Part shown: positions 9,615-24,498 of the stretch, piece after piece
Layout of the letters: every line of letters starts with the position of its first letter
Numbering within the stretch: the stretch's first letter is position 1
Assembly: GCF_014397255.1 (NCBI RefSeq)
Contig: NZ_CP060724.1
Coordinates: forward strand, 1,364,001 to 1,428,000
Length of the DNA: 64,000 nt
Reading direction: 5' to 3'
From: Weissella diestrammenae
Lineage (GTDB): Bacteria; Bacillota; Bacilli; Lactobacillales; Lactobacillaceae
Program-made: the position numbers and the translations under genes
The notes under the pieces: model-generated
Told to the model about the DNA's origin: nothing
The model's database searches: none
Seen by the model: only the letters and a program-made list of their open reading frames with translations

Positions 9615-10940
9615 ATGAAAAAGTCACTATTAGAATTACGCGAAAAGCAAACATCATTAATGTCTGATATTGCAGGATATGAAAAGCAATTAGATGGCAT
9701 GAAAATCAAGGTTAAGGAAGCAACTGCTGAGGACCAAATCGCACAAATCGAAAAGGACCAAGAAACAGTGAATACTGCCTTGGAAGCAGCAAAAACAGAA
9801 TTGCAAGATGTTGATTCCGAAGCTGAAACGGTTGAGGAAGAAATGAAATCATTAGCTATGAAAGGGAAACAAAAGATGGCCGAAGATAAGAATAAGACTA
9901 TTACACCAGCCAAAGACTATTTGAAGTCTAAGGCTGCAATGGAAGACTTCGCTAATATTATCGCCAAGAATGCAGGGGCTGATAAAGAAGACGTGGCAAA
10001 GGCATGGGAAAAGAATCTTGCTACCAAGGGTATTACTAATCCAGAATCAATTTTGCCACAAGCTGTTGTAACGGCAATTTCTGATGCATTTGAGAATTCA
10101 GGTTCATTGTTCGCTACTTTGTCAAAGACAGGGCTTACTGTTTACCGTGAGGCTTATAACACGGTTACAGACGAGACCGGACGTGCTAATGGACACAAGC
10201 GTGGAAAAGACAAGCAAGAGCAAGTCATTACGTTGTCTGACAAGACAATTCGTGCGCAATACATTTACAAGTACATCACACTTGATCGCGAAACATTACG
10301 TGAGAATCAAGATACTGGTGCAATTATTAAGTATGTTTTGCAAGAATTGCCACAACGTATTGTGATGGAATTGGAACGTGCAGCTATTATCGGTGATGGC
10401 CGATTAAAAGATGCTGATGATAAGGTTACATCATACGAAGCGGTGGTTGATGCAGACGCGGCTTACACAGCTAAGATGACGCGTACAGATGCAGCATTGC
10501 TTGTCGATTTAATTAATCTTGATGCTGAAATCACAGCAGAAGGTTCTCGCTATTTGGTTATGAATCGTCGTACTTTGGCATCAATGAAGACTACTCTTGA
10601 TGCTAATGGTAATTTGGCATATCCAGTTGGTACAGACTTTGCTGCATTATTGGGTGTTAAGGCTATCTTCACACCTGATTGGTTCGAAGAAGGTACTGAC
10701 GGTGCACCTATGGTAGTTGAATATGTGGGGGACGCATATAAGATTGTCGGAGATAGCACGATTGATTCTTACGATAACTTTATTTTGGCCAAGAATAAGC
10801 ATGAGTACTTGCAAGAAATCTACTCAGGTGGAGCATTGGTGAAGCCAAAGTCAGGTGCCGTATTGTTAGCTAAGGCAGCAGCTGGCGGTGGTACTAAGAA
10901 TACTCAAAAGCAAGAAGAATCTGACCCCGCAGAAGGTTAA
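9615..10940 (+). CDS. Major capsid protein (HK97 fold) with scaffold delta domain
   Basis: A 441-residue protein with an aaaggagaa ribosome site. Residues 1-110 are a charged coiled coil (the delta or scaffold domain removed by the protease encoded just upstream). The remainder is an HK97-type capsid subunit with the recognisable E-loop region around TDETGRANGHKRGKDKQ and the ALERAAIIGDG-like segment. It forms the icosahedral head. The C-terminal tail is Ala, Gly and Glu rich. If the neighbouring cassette is CmdTAC-like, capsid synthesis could be relevant to its triggering. Confidence 0.92.
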   Translation: MKKSLLELREKQTSLMSDIAGYEKQLDGMKIKVKEATAEDQIAQIEKDQETVNTALEAAKTELQDVDSEAETVEEEMKSLAMKGKQKMAEDKNKTITPAKDYLKSKAAMEDFANIIAKNAGADKEDVAKAWEKNLATKGITNPESILPQAVVTAISDAFENSGSLFATLSKTGLTVYREAYNTVTDETGRANGHKRGKDKQEQVITLSDKTIRAQYIYKYITLDRETLRENQDTGAIIKYVLQELPQRIVMELERAAIIGDGRLKDADDKVTSYEAVVDADAAYTAKMTRTDAALLVDLINLDAEITAEGSRYLVMNRRTLASMKTTLDANGNLAYPVGTDFAALLGVKAIFTPDWFEEGTDGAPMVVEYVGDAYKIVGDSTIDSYDNFILAKNKHEYLQEIYSGGALVKPKSGAVLLAKAAAGGGTKNTQKQEESDPAEG

Positions 10941-19482: not shown

Positions 19483-19733
19483 ATGTAAGTACGGAAGTTT
19501 TATTGGCGGTCGTTACTGGTATTGGTGGTGTATTCACAATCGTCATTAATTACCTGATTGGCCGTCAAAAAACAAATGAATTGAATAATGACCAACGCAT
19601 TCGTGATTTGAATAAAAAGGTCGATAAATTGATTCAGGACGTGATGAAATTAACACGAGAGAATGCTGAATTAAAAGTTGAAAATACCATGCTCAAAAGT
19701 GAGCTTGATAAGTTGCAAAGCAAGAAAGGATAA
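19479..19733 (+). CDS. Probable holin or XhlA-like lysis protein
   Basis: An 84-residue protein: one N-terminal membrane helix (residues about 7-27, LLAVVTGIGGVFTIVINYLI) followed by a coiled coil with heptad leucines up to the C-terminus. This is the layout of hemolysin XhlA and related holin-associated proteins, which lie between tail and endolysin genes as here. Because the endolysin has its own signal peptide, this protein may only trigger or depolarise rather than export it. Confidence 0.6.
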   Translation: MNVSTEVLLAVVTGIGGVFTIVINYLIGRQKTNELNNDQRIRDLNKKVDKLIQDVMKLTRENAELKVENTMLKSELDKLQSKKG

Positions 19734-19737
19734 TAGA

Positions 19738-20973
19738 ATGAAAATCAATAAATTTTTCAAGGGACTGCTTGCAGCCCTTTTTATTTTCGGGTTCACAGCA
19801 CCAGTTAGTGCGGCCGTTGGAGACCATGGCGTTGATTGGGCTGTATATCAAGGTGACTATGGTAAGTTTGGTTATGCACACGATAAATTCTCAATCTCGC
19901 AGATTGGGGGCTACACAGGTGCAATATATGACCAATCAACGTATAAGACACAAGTGCAGTCAAGTATTGCACAAGGCAAGCGAGCACACACTTATATTTG
20001 GTGGCAGAATGTGACGGATAACGGCACAGCTGATTATGTGCTAAATTACTTTTTACCAAAGGTTCAAACACCTAAGGGTTCGATTGTAGCGCTTGACGTT
20101 GAATCTGGCTGGCAAAATACAGATACAATTCTGTATGCTCTGCAACGCATTAAAGATGCTGGATATACACCATTATTGTATGGATATAAAAATTTCTTGG
20201 TCAATAACACTGATTTGAATCGTATCGCTGATAGTTACGGACTGTGGCTTGCAGAATATCCAAATTATGAAGTCACACCAGAGCCAAATTATAACTACTT
20301 CCCATCCTTCAAAAACGTGCAAGTGTTCCAATTTACATCAACATATATTGCTGGTGGATTAGATGGTAACGTTGATTTAACAGGGGTTACTGATAATGGT
20401 TATACAAAGGGTAAACCCGATACGGATACCCCTGCTATTGACGCAGGACAAGGCGCTGATGATACCAGTAAAAAGAAAATTGATGTTGGCACAACTGTGA
20501 AGGTAAACTTTGGCGCTAGTCATTATGCTACTGGTGAATTGATTCCAGACTACATTAAGGGAGTAGCGCACAAGGTAATTCAACGCGATGGCAACCGTGT
20601 ATTGCTTGATGATATTTACTCATGGGTAAACGTTAAAGACGTTGAAATTCTGGACGATGGCAACGCTACTGCATCGTTCTCAAACGTTTATGTATTAGAC
20701 AGTTGGCAAGTATGGCAAGGTCGATGGTATGGTGTGAATAACGATATGTCAGTTGCACCGATTGACTATAATAACTATATTCCAGCTACACCAATTACGA
20801 TGACTGATCGATTTGGTAATCGGTTATCAGACCAATCAATTCATGGTAATAACGGCGTGGTTGAATTCTTTACATTGAATGGTAACTATCAAGTGTTAGA
20901 ACGTAGCGGAGCATATGTGAAACTAAGTATTGACGGCGAGCCAGTCTGGTTGAAGTCTGCGTATGTAAATTAA
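19738..20973 (+). CDS. Endolysin: secreted GH25 muramidase with C-terminal SH3-like wall-binding repeats
   Basis: ATG 19738 gives 411 residues. A Sec signal peptide occupies about residues 1-24 (MKINKFFKGLLAALFIFGF, ending VSAA). The GH25 catalytic domain (about 26-220) shows GVDWAVYQGD, IALDVES with the catalytic acids, and WLAEYP. After a linker (about 220-250), two SH3-like domains follow (VKVNFGASHYATGELIPDYIK, and the end region with VVEFFTLNGNYQVLERSG). It cuts the peptidoglycan glycan strand. A signal-peptide endolysin, as known from Oenococcus phages, reaches the wall by the Sec path. Terminator directly after. Confidence 0.92.
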   Translation: MKINKFFKGLLAALFIFGFTAPVSAAVGDHGVDWAVYQGDYGKFGYAHDKFSISQIGGYTGAIYDQSTYKTQVQSSIAQGKRAHTYIWWQNVTDNGTADYVLNYFLPKVQTPKGSIVALDVESGWQNTDTILYALQRIKDAGYTPLLYGYKNFLVNNTDLNRIADSYGLWLAEYPNYEVTPEPNYNYFPSFKNVQVFQFTSTYIAGGLDGNVDLTGVTDNGYTKGKPDTDTPAIDAGQGADDTSKKKIDVGTTVKVNFGASHYATGELIPDYIKGVAHKVIQRDGNRVLLDDIYSWVNVKDVEILDDGNATASFSNVYVLDSWQVWQGRWYGVNNDMSVAPIDYNNYIPATPITMTDRFGNRLSDQSIHGNNGVVEFFTLNGNYQVLERSGAYVKLSIDGEPVWLKSAYVN

Positions 20974-20978
20974 TAATT

Positions 20979-21018
20979 AAGCCCACCCGGTAGTTAATTC
21001 TATTGAGTGGGCTTTTTT
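20979..21018 (+). terminator. Terminator of late operon
   Basis: Stem AAGCCCAC paired with GTGGGCTT around a 20-base loop, followed by TTTTTT. It ends the morphogenesis and lysis operon, so the genes after it need their own promoters. Confidence 0.85.
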
Positions 21019-21026
21019 ATTTTGGC

Positions 21027-21054
21027 TTGAAAAATATTGGTTTTAAACTATACT
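21027..21054 (+). promoter_or_regulatory. Promoter of YolD-like gene
   Basis: TTGAAA (21027-21032), 16-base spacer, TATACT (21049-21054), about 35 bases before the ATG. The surrounding sequence is repeated in shortened form at 23181-23210. Confidence 0.6.
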
Positions 21055-21088
21055 ATATTAAGTTAAACCTAATAAAAGGAGATACGTA

Positions 21089-21469
21089 ATGAATCAAGAA
21101 ACAATCAATCAAGAAACATTAATAAGAGCAAAACGTTTTTTTGAAAATGACTATAAAGAGCGGGGAATGGTTAAATGGCAAGGTTATTATTTATCTGACC
21201 ATACGGAAGATGCTGAGAAAAATAGACTTGCACGTAAACAAGCGTACGAACAGGGGTGGATGCCAGAGATGAGTATGGTTGAGATTGGTGAGGTGTTATT
21301 CGATGCATACTCAAAGGGGCGTATGGTAGCCATACAGGAACGTGTAAGGCAAGATGAGTTTGTACCACAGTTAATTCATGGCGTTGTTAAGGGGTATGGC
21401 GAGACTGATATATTTGTCGGGAATCATCAAATTGAGATGAATAATATTCGTTGGGCGATAATAAAATGA
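21089..21469 (+). CDS. YolD-like protein (possible SOS/polymerase-associated)
   Basis: A 126-residue protein with an aaaaggagatacgt ribosome site. GMVKWQGYYLSDHTEDAEK near residue 26, and a C-terminal IGEVLFDAYSKGRMVAIQERV then VKGYGETDIFVGNHQIEMNNIRWAII, fit the YolD-like family found next to UmuC/DinB-type polymerases on LAB plasmids and phages. No umuC gene follows here. It is in the lysogenic-cargo zone after the lysin terminator and has its own promoter. If the family call is right it may bind or modulate translesion polymerase; it could also be an unrelated moron. Confidence 0.5.
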   Translation: MNQETINQETLIRAKRFFENDYKERGMVKWQGYYLSDHTEDAEKNRLARKQAYEQGWMPEMSMVEIGEVLFDAYSKGRMVAIQERVRQDEFVPQLIHGVVKGYGETDIFVGNHQIEMNNIRWAIIK

Positions 21470-21498
21470 TTAAATAAAATTTAAAGACTATAGTTATG

Positions 21499-21528
21499 TT
21501 GACTGTTTGACAAATATGCGTATATAAT
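21499..21528 (+). promoter_or_regulatory. Promoter of CmdTAC-like cassette
   Basis: TTGACT (21499-21504), 18-base spacer, perfect TATAAT (21523-21528), 34 bases before the ATG at 21563. A second TTGACA at 21507 is too close to the -10 to be used. The strong box suggests expression in the lysogen independent of the late operon. Confidence 0.65.
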
Positions 21529-21562
21529 TAGTTGTTTTGTATTCGATGTCAGGGGTAGCAGT

Positions 21563-22147
21563 ATGGATTGGGAACTATATCATGGAACAGAATTGAGTAA
21601 AAAGGCTTCCATATTAAAAAATGGGTTTACCATGCCTGGAAATACGAAATGGCCAGGAGATCTTGGACGTGGGGTATATACATTTTTAGATAATGATAAA
21701 TATGAGCAAAGTGCGGAAAATGCTGCTAAAATGTATGCTAAAAAATACAGACGATATAGCGAAAATTGTATAATTAAAATAGAAATACCTGATGTTGACG
21801 AATCAAGGGTTTGGAACCTGAATGACCAAGAAGAACTTGATAAACTTGTTGAAGCAAAAAAAGCTCTAAGAGAAGTAATTGATAAGAGAGTTGCTCAATT
21901 GGAAAAAGACAATGTGGGGACAAGTGTGGCTAATAGACATAACATAGACGGAATATTATTAGATGTTTACTGGGAGTATGCTGATTTAAGTAGTTTAGCC
22001 GATTATTTGGTTAAAGATAGGTGGGAAGATATAGAAAGCTATGAGACAAATTCGCATGGTGGACAGATTCCAAACTCAACGGTCGTAGTTATAAAAAATA
22101 GCGGCGTTATTAAAACAACACAGCTAAATGAAATTATGATATCATAA
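21563..22147 (+). CDS. ADP-ribosyltransferase-like toxin (CmdT-like)
   Basis: A 194-residue protein. It starts with LYHGTELSKKASILKNGF (His7 in YHGT) and then DLGRGVYTF (Tyr39). These are the first two positions of the H-Y-E/Q arrangement of diphtheria-toxin/PARP-type and DUF3990-like ADP-ribosyltransferases. The C-terminal HGGQIPNSTVVVIKN, with Gln168, would give the third position. The middle is helical. Together with a small gene and a SecB-like chaperone gene in the same transcript, this matches a CmdTAC-type module, in which the toxin ADP-ribosylates mRNA and stops translation after phage infection. The ribosome site is weak (aggggt), as often for toxins. Family call from motifs only. 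Confidence 0.65.
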   Translation: MDWELYHGTELSKKASILKNGFTMPGNTKWPGDLGRGVYTFLDNDKYEQSAENAAKMYAKKYRRYSENCIIKIEIPDVDESRVWNLNDQEELDKLVEAKKALREVIDKRVAQLEKDNVGTSVANRHNIDGILLDVYWEYADLSSLADYLVKDRWEDIESYETNSHGGQIPNSTVVVIKNSGVIKTTQLNEIMIS

Positions 22148-22194
22148 AGTTAATCTAGATTTAGATAATGATTTGAATTTATGAGGAGGCAATT

Positions 22195-22503
22195 ATGACA
22201 ATTTCAAAGGTAAAGGCCCCTAGAATTACAGAAGATCAATTAAAAGATTTTGAAAATTCACAAATTCTTGATGTAATTTTAAAAGATTTTTTTGAAATTA
22301 AGAAATCCGAATTTCAACAGGTTGATTTGTTTAATGAACTTTTATTTTCGGATGATGTAAAAGTTGAGCTACACAGAGTTGAAGATGTGGAAGATTTTGA
22401 GATGCATGTCGCTTCTGAAGTGCCTAATATAGTTAATTGGAATCATGAAGAAGTTACATTTGGATTCGTAGAAATAGACAAACAGGAGCAGGTTGCAGCA
22501 TAA
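22195..22503 (+). CDS. Small protein, candidate antitoxin (CmdA-like)
   Basis: A 102-residue acidic protein with a strong ribosome site (gaggaggcaatt), better than that of the upstream toxin. It starts 47 bases after the toxin stop and overlaps the SecB-like gene by one base (TAATG), so antitoxin and chaperone would be made together. I see no DNA-binding motif. The C-terminal tail (NWNHEEVTFGFVEIDKQEQVAA, shown in part) might be the chaperone-addiction segment. The function is inferred purely from position between toxin-like and chaperone-like genes. Confidence 0.55.
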   Translation: MTISKVKAPRITEDQLKDFENSQILDVILKDFFEIKKSEFQQVDLFNELLFSDDVKVELHRVEDVEDFEMHVASEVPNIVNWNHEEVTFGFVEIDKQEQVAA

Positions 22504-22910
22504 TGGCAGCATTTAAATTTAATGGTTTTAAAGTTTTGAGGATGAATTTTGAAGCGAAAGAAAAATTTGTCAAAGACGATCAAAATTATGAGTTTAATAT
22601 TGGACATGATTTTTCAATTAATGGTACTCATATGAGTGTGAAGTTAGGTACAAACAATACGAACGACTTCCCCTTTAAGTACAATGTACTTATACAAGGT
22701 GAATTTGATTATGTGGACTCAGAGGATTCAGATGGAATTGGGTTTAAAGCATTTAGAGCAAATGCTCTGGCTATTTTATTTCCCTATTTAAGAACCATTG
22801 TAGCCCAAGTTACTGCGATATCAGAATTTGAGGCAGTAACGTTACCAACGATAAATATGATTCAATATCTTGAAAATGCAGATCTGAGAGAAACAAATTC
22901 TCAAAATTAG
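22503..22910 (+). CDS. SecB-like chaperone (CmdC-like)
   Basis: A 135-residue protein. Residues about 86-124 carry the SecB C-terminal signature: ANALAILFPYLRTIVAQV, then a TLPTINMIQYLE ending, matching the LFPYAR and LPPINF-type positions of SecB (PF02556). The N-terminal part alternates like SecB beta strands. True SecB export chaperones are a proteobacterial feature. In other bacteria SecB-like proteins occur in toxin-antitoxin-chaperone modules, where they hold and protect the antitoxin. Its gene is coupled to the small gene upstream and is followed by a long terminator hairpin, so it is the last cassette member. Confidence 0.72.
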   Translation: MAAFKFNGFKVLRMNFEAKEKFVKDDQNYEFNIGHDFSINGTHMSVKLGTNNTNDFPFKYNVLIQGEFDYVDSEDSDGIGFKAFRANALAILFPYLRTIVAQVTAISEFEAVTLPTINMIQYLENADLRETNSQN

Positions 22911-22937
22911 ATGTCAATTAATTCATATGTGTTTAAA

Positions 22938-22983
22938 AATAAGCTATAACAAATAGTATTATTACTATTTGTTATAGCTTATT
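22938..22983. terminator. Long perfect hairpin, probable bidirectional terminator
   Basis: A 21-base arm starting AATAAGCTATAAC is followed by TTAT and its exact reverse complement ending GCTTATT. Runs of A and T flank both sides, so it can stop transcription in both directions. It closes the CmdTAC-like cassette. Confidence 0.75.
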
Positions 22984-23766
22984 ATTATTTACTTAATCTT
23001 AGAACGCTTGGCTATTAGATAATGAATAAAATTAAGATAAGATGATTGTGAAATAATAATAGAATCATCTGAATTATCGTAGTATGTTTTGACCTGTCAG
23101 TGCAACTTGGCTACTGTTGATGACCTTGAAAAAATAAAAACACCGTTTAAGGCAGAATGACGACGTTATTCGATGCTGGTCTTGAAAAATATTGTTATTA
23201 AGTTAGACCTTTTGCACCAATTTTGCACCAAAAATCGTCAAAAAGGCTTTATAATAGCGTTTATACATTCCCACGTACTATGAATCGTTTGCGTCCGTAA
23301 AACATTGTTAAGTCGCTGTCGTTGGCTATATACCAACGATAGACGGCTTTTTATTATGCATTATAATTCGTTTTCTTTCGTGATAATTCATTAAAAATTC
23401 GCACCATTTTTGCACAAGATGGTTAAAGATATTAAATTATATTATTTAAATAATAATCGTTTATGTTTTTTATCTGAATATTTGCAAGCGACTCAGTACA
23501 ATTAAGTTTATATGTGGAATGGCCGTATAACGGCAGCCTTTTGGAATCTGAACGTTAATTTTCTTGTTTTGTAAATGAGGGTGAGGACGTCAATGACCTG
23601 AATTTATCAATAATTTCCGGTAATCAATAATGAATATTGCTTTGTGATGAACATGAATACACTATGCGTTTGAAATATATTTCGATGTATAATTAATTTT
23701 AAATGTACTAAAAGTAAGTGAAATGATAAAATGAGACTATTAAAATGTATTGGGGGAAGGATTACT
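22984..23766. other. Gene-free prophage right end with candidate attR and integrase arm sites
   Basis: No supportable gene in this stretch. It contains the direct repeat of the YolD promoter region (23181-23210). Two tandem TTTTGCACCA copies lie at 23211-23230, and a related CGCACCATTTTTGCAC lies near 23401; both resemble integrase arm-type sites. A short frame ends with TAA at 23298-23300, just before a terminator. The prophage boundary (attR) is probably between about 23.2 and 23.5 kb. The core cannot be fixed because attL and the integrase lie outside the window. Confidence 0.4.
23312..23353 (+). terminator. Terminator near prophage end
   Basis: Stem GTCGTTGG paired with CCAACGAT around CTATATA, extended on both sides, followed by TTTTT. 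It may belong to a host gene remnant that ends at 23300. Confidence 0.65.
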
Positions 23767-24498
23767 ATGACTTTTTTTGAAAAACAGAAAGGCCAGACAG
23801 AACTGCCAATTATTGATAATTCAATTAGTACCAAAACAGCATTATTATTAATTGTGGTACCAACTGTCATCTTTATGGCTTTGGTTTACCTGAGTTTTCA
23901 GTTTCCAATCACAAATGAATTTATGAATTTCATAACTTATAGTTTGTCACCATTTCTAGCGTTGACAGGTAGCTTATGGTTAATCCTAGGTCGGCAGATA
24001 AATGAATTGTTTAAAGGCCGATTAACAGGGAATTTTTTAATTTGGTTGTTAACGTTTATTAGTATTTTTATCTATAATATTTTAATTGGTCATGTGATGA
24101 CCTTCTTTCACTTGCCGATGGCTAACAACTTGGCTGTTGAACAGTCCGTTGGTAATCATTCAATCATCATTGAGGGCATAAATAATTTTTTTGGCCTGTT
24201 TAGTGAGGAATTATTTGCAATTCCAGTGTTTATTGGTTTTACAGCGTTATTTTTTCAAACATATAAAATGAACCGAGATTTAAGTATTTACCTTGGCTTG
24301 CTATTTTCAATGATTTTGTTTGGTTTGGCGCACTTTGAAGCATATAGTTGGCACATTTGGCAAATGATGCTAATGATTGGCGCCTTGCGCTTCTTTATTA
24401 CGGGGCTATATATTCGAACAAAGAATATTTTAATTCCGTTTTCATTGCATTATATATACGACATGTTACTTATTTCATTACCAATAATTTTTCATTAG
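23767..24498 (+). CDS. CPBP-family intramembrane metalloprotease
   Basis: ATG 23767 is chosen since gggggaagg lies just upstream; an in-frame ATG at 23731 is the alternative. 243 residues with about seven hydrophobic segments. CPBP (CAAX/Abi, PF02517) motifs: the Glu-Glu pair in FGLFSEELFA, FGLAHFEAY with the first His, and SLHYIYD with the last His-x-x-x-D. The usual Arg three residues after Glu-Glu is absent. In lactic acid bacteria such proteins serve in bacteriocin immunity or surface processing. It is monocistronic and the first gene past the prophage. Confidence 0.78.
   Translation: MTFFEKQKGQTELPIIDNSISTKTALLLIVVPTVIFMALVYLSFQFPITNEFMNFITYSLSPFLALTGSLWLILGRQINELFKGRLTGNFLIWLLTFISIFIYNILIGHVMTFFHLPMANNLAVEQSVGNHSIIIEGINNFFGLFSEELFAIPVFIGFTALFFQTYKMNRDLSIYLGLLFSMILFGLAHFEAYSWHIWQMMLMIGALRFFITGLYIRTKNILIPFSLHYIYDMLLISLPIIFH

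Follow-up and report, generated by a model that had tools for sequence, protein, structure and literature searches.

A prophage-borne toxin-antitoxin-chaperone cassette, probably of the CmdTAC kind, in Weissella diestrammenae

Why would a prophage of a lactic acid bacterium end in an operon for a toxin, an antitoxin and a SecB-like chaperone? The question is raised by a 64,000-nucleotide stretch of Weissella diestrammenae DNA (NCBI RefSeq assembly GCF_014397255.1, contig NZ_CP060724.1, positions 1,364,001 to 1,428,000 of the forward strand), hereafter the window, in which three adjoining genes (Table 1) recall CmdTAC of Escherichia coli, a system earlier named PD-T4-9 (PMC9519451). Our answer, to which we give a probability of roughly 0.74, is that this cassette, carried by the prophage, is a CmdTAC-like toxin-antitoxin-chaperone (TAC) module, which would abort infection when a phage protein takes the chaperone away from the antitoxin. 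The answer starts from the genes themselves, their folds, family and order, their position in the prophage, a degron-like antitoxin end and a tie between that end and the chaperone. A sequence-only reading of this DNA had proposed a distant lactic acid bacterial version of CmdTAC at this place, a proposal now supported by the ADP-ribosyltransferase (ART) fold of the toxin, the SecB and CmdC matches of the chaperone, and the recurring gene order. A chance arrangement can be set aside, because the toxin reaches phrog_14664 (1.6e-27), the chaperone reaches the CmdC models of PADLOC (PD-T4-9_C, E 4.7e-15), and the three genes stand in this order in dozens of further genomes.

Toxin, antitoxin and chaperone

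Open reading frame (ORF) calls placed the three genes where the sequence-only reading had put them, and every motif it had named is present, namely YHGT (residues 6-9), GRGVYTF (35-41) and GGQIPNS (166-172) in the toxin, and LFPYLR and LPTIN in the chaperone. Comparison of the AlphaFold2 model of the toxin (pLDDT 79) with known structures bore out the expected fold, nearly all leading rows being ARTs. The matches included ParT (Z 8.2), VPA0770 (8.1), NatT (7.9), diphtheria toxin (7.9), PARP2 (7.3) and Tpt1 (7.2), values that lie close to the noise level flagged by the structure-comparison tool, and extended to DarT1, exotoxin A and further PARPs. Weak Pfam PARP matches were obtained for the window toxin (0.011) and in 10 of 17 relatives, and His7, Thr9, Gly35, Gly37 and Tyr39 are invariant in all 47 relatives of the family alignment. 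Given the agreement of these three lines, we judge the predicted ART fold of the diphtheria/PARP type to be secure.

Kinship to CmdT itself was traced through profiles, since no convincing direct match of the window toxin emerged from PADLOC, NCBIfam or PDB sequences. A profile built from 17 relatives from Lactobacillaceae and phages finds toxins across Bacillota, down to 1e-13, five of which match the PADLOC CmdT models (PD-T4-9_A; best 3.8e-9). In a pattern-fetched set, the same profile finds gamma-proteobacterial toxins at about 1e-12 to 1e-18, two of which match PD-T4-9_A weakly. Three proteins (L034, L035 and L040) were excluded, as they stand without the neighbouring genes and resemble another ART group. 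Of the family matches that had been expected, that of the chaperone to SecB held, whereas the toxin was connected by intermediates and not by a direct hit to a CmdT model. A search of plasmids with the toxin protein gave no match, and scans with back-translated peptides yielded little. A PADLOC pAgo match of the toxin (2.6e-4) was rejected, since it is short, lies inside a model of 1030 residues and has no counterpart in any of the relatives.

CmdT homologues are described as carrying an HY-[E,D,Q] catalytic triad (PMC11618068). The window toxin retains His7 and Tyr39, and its third position is Val174. Across the 47 aligned toxins, this position is occupied by Glu in 30, Gln in 14, Val in 2 and Tyr in 1, the Tyr case (L047) lying in a poorly aligned stretch. 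Val is found solely in the window toxin and in L005, the toxin of a congener, which are sisters on the toxin tree (100/99 support) at about 35% identity. Because both keep the other motifs, the Val has the look of a substitution passed down in a functional protein and not of degeneration. Since the third catalytic residue departs from the triad, we class the cassette as a variant of CmdTAC and not as a full member.

The middle protein is, as had been described, small and acidic (net charge -14). It ends in EQVAA, and the tmRNA tag of the host, AKNSNNMAVAA, closes with the same VAA; the host also encodes ClpP. The last residues of E. coli CmdA are LAA, and ClpP degrades that antitoxin once CmdC leaves (PMC11618068). 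Judged by its last residues, the window antitoxin appears to carry a C terminus of the ClpXP type. Its N-terminal half aligns with the antitoxin of phage LJ (z 8.5), and in all relatives with the three genes, the antitoxin gene stands between those of toxin and chaperone. No helix-turn-helix (HTH) family match was found for it in Pfam, and a TMEM132 match (0.0022) was weak and judged to be chance.

For the third gene, the SecB fold that had been anticipated was confirmed, and a CmdC-family match was found besides. The protein matches Pfam SecB at 8.6e-5, just below the gathering cut-off, as well as phrog_21664, and its AlphaFold2 model (pLDDT 75) matches SecB with a Z of 14.9 over 131 residues and the Mycobacterium tuberculosis TAC chaperone Rv1957, with bound antitoxin peptide, at 11.0. 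Two streptococcal proteins of unassigned function follow (Z 9.4 and 8.8), after which the rows fall to 5.5. As the sole match to CmdC models in its genome, this chaperone is not taken for a second, housekeeping SecB.

Antitoxin tails and two-gene relatives

Ten loci on the toxin tree have no adjoining chaperone gene, nine of them scorable, and the antitoxins of such loci are 52-84 amino acids long. An antitoxin ending in [AV]A was found in 31 of 36 loci with a chaperone and in 0 of 9 without (Fisher 2.3e-6, the rows being related to one another); L016 was excluded from these tail counts, its antitoxin ORF running on into the next gene. A separate set spanning many phyla, collected with another motif, gave 42 of 55 with a chaperone against 1 of 36 without, with the reservations that the antitoxins in it were machine-called, that some chaperone-less loci may be cut or belong to other ARTs, and that the chaperone in some loci may escape the Lactobacillales profile. 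On the toxin tree, the chaperone state must have changed five times or more to agree with the well-supported branches. Among five independent pairs, tail and chaperone are present or absent together in nearly all pairings (sign test 0.06, the minimum possible for five). The clearest pair is L069 versus L044, in which residues 3-51 of 69 align with residues 2-50 of 96 (z 13.8) and the C-terminal part of L069 is different and shorter. In the clearest pairs generally, antitoxins from chaperone-less loci retain the N-terminal half but not the C-terminal third; some other antitoxin pairs are too diverged for alignment. A C-terminal extension of the antitoxin thus appears, from these alignments and counts, to accompany the chaperone, as it does in TAC modules.

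Whether the two-gene forms use a chaperone encoded elsewhere was addressed with a SecB-like profile run genome-wide. It found no SecB-like gene in seven genomes having the two-gene form only, one such gene each, at the cassette, in seven genomes with the three-gene form only, and a single one, at the three-gene copy, in both genomes that hold both forms (G173 and G802). On account of these results, the two-gene forms seem not to borrow a chaperone. Chaperone addiction has been shown for the antitoxins HigA and MqsA (PMC5105189), and the tie between tail and chaperone fits this phenomenon and extends it to ART toxins. Tentatively, and at somewhat less than even odds, we propose that the tagged antitoxin tail and the SecB gene have come and gone as a unit on at least five occasions, that the two form a detachable phage sensor while the two-gene form is triggered otherwise, and that toxins of the window branch can dispense with the third catalytic residue and perhaps act on a different target.

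Variation at individual loci was also observed. In three chaperone-less loci (L013, L019 and L068), the antitoxin gene occurs two or three times in tandem, and in L016, on the minus strand, the antitoxin ORF continues in frame into an ACT-domain-like gene, through either a missing stop or a fusion.

Distribution and prophage setting

The three genes occur together in many other genomes and phages, including phages and satellites of Lactobacillales, in agreement with the co-occurrence that the proposed cassette implied, and the same gene order is also found in other phyla. Relatives were detected in 16 of 397 Lactobacillaceae genomes by single-protein search and, by profile, in 16 of 395 genomes of the wider order and in 18 of 398 Bacillota genomes, three of the latter probably representing another ART group; within the genus, 2 of 28 genomes are carriers. 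The Streptococcus satellite phage Javan245 is a carrier, as are 12 of 13 IMG/VR contigs fetched by one toxin motif, and an Enterococcus faecium plasmid shows the order lysin-toxin-antitoxin-chaperone. In phage LJ of L. casei (orf57-59) and in Latilactobacillus phage TMW 1.1386 P1, the same three kinds of gene lie between lysin and integrase, in the order lysin-toxin-antitoxin-chaperone-integrase. The LJ toxin is 28% identical to the window toxin and differs from it in having Glu at the third catalytic position, and that of TMW 1.1386 P1 matches the family profile only weakly (8e-6). The genome of phage TMW 1.1386 P1 was obtained by sequencing virions from an induced lysate, and carriage of the cassette therefore does not block particle formation.

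Some loci stand apart. In L012, L043 and L082, the toxin gene copies are broken by internal stops or a frameshift and the antitoxin is intact. An archaeal contig (L093, a Methanothermococcus metagenome-assembled genome) has a toxin, an ORF and a SecB-like gene in the same order, and a Pediococcus inopinatus plasmid (L046) has a gene for an HTH antitoxin with the C-terminal end -GDVA and, after it, a SecB-like gene, a further type of TAC in lactic acid bacteria.

The prophage that holds the window cassette measures 33.6 kb and is inserted in the 3' end of asnS, the cassette being its last operon. Its integrase, terminase, portal, prohead protease, capsid, tape measure and lysin were recognised between a 92-bp direct repeat, which corroborates the prophage setting that had been claimed; the capsid protein is encoded at window 9615-10940. 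The integrase lies beside asnS (genome 1353853-1354950), next to the 3' end of that gene, which forms the counterpart of attR (genome 1353657-1353748). IMG/VR contains this prophage, on a contig that, judged by coordinates, ends at the last base of the chaperone gene. Where other prophages of the genus have a similar lysin, Abi_2 abortive-infection genes (Pfam 9.3e-38) occupy the corresponding position, and the interval between lysin and attachment site (att) looks like a slot for defence cargo. The Abi_2 genes lie between lysin and att/dnaD in congener prophages (L210:3284-4261, L217 and L218). The slot in L210 and L211 also contains a two-gene pair, possibly SocA/Panacea-like, the first gene of which has no Pfam match.

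Table 1. Features of the cassette and its surroundings (positions in the window)
Feature	Position	Strand	Details
Toxin gene, cmdT-like	21563-22147	+	194 aa; AlphaFold2 model, phrog_14664, family alignment and tree
Acidic antitoxin gene, cmdA-like	22195-22503	+	102 aa; C-terminal -QVAA; strong Shine-Dalgarno GAGGAGG
SecB-fold chaperone gene, cmdC-like	22503-22910	+	135 aa; PD-T4-9_C, Pfam SecB and model matches
Promoter-like site TTGACT-18-TATAAT	21499-21528	+	consensus match 11/12, best in 20500-24000
Terminator-like 20-bp hairpin 3' of the operon	22938-22983	+	-28.8 kcal/mol, z -9.6 vs shuffles
Short gene 5' of the cassette, outside it	21089-21469	+	126 aa; phrog_16307 1.1e-12
Lysin of the prophage (glycosyl hydrolase family 25), adjoining the cargo slot on its left	19678-20973	+	Pfam Glyco_hydro_25 4.9e-21; ORF called from TTG, scan used start at 19738
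attR, right prophage end; duplicates the asnS 3' end including its terminator	23266-23357	+	92 bp, 1 mismatch

The start codon (ATG) of the chaperone gene and the stop codon of the antitoxin gene share one nucleotide. A promoter and a terminator of the operon's own had also been claimed, and matching sites are indeed present; however, promoter-like matches as a class are barely enriched (24 found against 18.3 expected), and the AT-rich hairpin has only a poor T tail, which leaves these two signals plausible. The short gene upstream of the cassette has a lone copy, 89% identical, at genome 1020929-1021462 (L209), and partial matches to it occur in most of the genomes in the genus.

Proposed function and competing explanations

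By its published definition, CmdTAC consists of a CmdT homologue, one further ORF and a SecB-like protein, encoded in this order (PMC9519451). The window cassette agrees with this definition in gene order, and in CmdT homology through intermediates only. With CmdTAC of E. coli ECOR22 it shares the order of toxin, antitoxin and SecB chaperone, an ART-fold toxin with invariant His and Tyr, the Ala-Ala end of the antitoxin and a chaperone of the CmdC family, whereas its toxin is missed by the PADLOC CmdT models and has Val at the third catalytic position, and the whole is cargo of a lactic acid bacterial prophage. The E. coli system is further described as having a 1:1:4 complex, ClpP-dependent activation, a capsid trigger, RNA ADP-ribosylation and abortive infection. 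TAC modules of the HigBA/MqsRA type, such as M. tuberculosis Rv1955-57, likewise have a SecB-like chaperone and a C-terminal extension of the antitoxin, but their toxin is an RNase where that of the window is an ART, and the window antitoxin differs in having no HTH family match. Because Gram-positive CmdTAC homologues have already been reported (PMC11618068), the lactic acid bacterial cassette extends a known range.

By analogy with the E. coli system, we infer complex formation, ClpP dependence, a capsid trigger, an RNA target and defence itself, including protection of the lysogen. In the lysogen, the SecB-like chaperone would hold the C-terminal half of the antitoxin, which ends in the ClpXP-type tag VAA, and the N-terminal half would keep the ART toxin silent. 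A protein of an infecting phage, the capsid protein in the E. coli system, would draw the chaperone off, whereupon ClpP would degrade the antitoxin and free the toxin. The toxin might then ADP-ribosylate an essential target, by analogy mRNA, and the infection would abort, protecting neighbouring lysogens and their prophage.

Several points weigh against this explanation. The PADLOC CmdT models (PD-T4-9_A) miss the window toxin and all 17 of its Lactobacillaceae and phage relatives, although these models are narrow and direct recognition by PADLOC is no part of the published definition. The profile searches support a place for the toxin in the CmdT family only through a chain of intermediates. 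With Val174 in place of Glu or Gln, the chemistry may differ or fail. Finally, TAC modules can serve stress control or addiction instead of defence, and no lactic acid bacterial member has, to our knowledge, been assayed for defence.

A role in prophage maintenance or stress response, in which loss of the prophage would remove antitoxin and chaperone and lead to arrest, would account for a degron-like antitoxin end on a prophage-borne module whose parts list is that of stress-linked TAC modules such as M. tuberculosis HigBA1-SecB (PMC5105189). An integrated prophage, however, hardly needs addiction, related prophages of the genus keep Abi_2 genes in the slot between lysin and att, and the nearest characterised relatives of the chaperone belong to anti-phage CmdTAC; we regard this role as unlikely. 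The altered catalytic position admits a different explanation, in which the toxin is crippled and the cassette is a decoy, its antitoxin and chaperone neutralising the CmdTAC of the next host and allowing the phage to escape, much as T4 escapes CmdTAC via an altered protein that stabilises CmdA (PMC11618068). The loss of Glu or Gln in both the window toxin and its congener L005 suits a decoy, yet both keep the His, Thr, Gly, Gly and Tyr motifs at about 35% identity, which argues that the toxin is under constraint. Moreover, PARP-type mono-transferases are active without the Glu, and we consider a decoy very improbable. Equally hard to credit, if not slightly more so, is an origin of the toxin in another ART group (RES/ParT/NatT, depleting NAD or modifying Prs) that joined a SecB chaperone independently. 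ParT, VPA0770 and NatT are indeed the top structural matches (Z 7.9-8.2), but diphtheria toxin and PARPs fall within 1 Z of them, so that the ranking amounts to a tie; the toxin has no RES family match in Pfam, its relatives match PD-T4-9_A, and its neighbours on the tree have the same three genes.

Read as a TAC module of the CmdTAC kind, the cassette bears on the biology of temperate phages in lactic acid bacteria. What is known of CmdTAC comes from one capsid-sensing system of E. coli, and here the same architecture appears as temperate-phage cargo across Lactobacillales. A paradox can thereby be put to the test: the phage has to produce capsid protein, yet the system that it carries is related to one that capsid sets off. 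The chaperone-less two-gene relatives offer natural experiments that can show the contribution of chaperone and antitoxin tail. The cassette also suggests a likely function for phrog_14664 and phrog_21664, which have so far been without one. Because this branch of toxins escapes the PADLOC models, current counts of such systems in lactic acid bacteria, in which phage resistance is of practical value, are probably too low.
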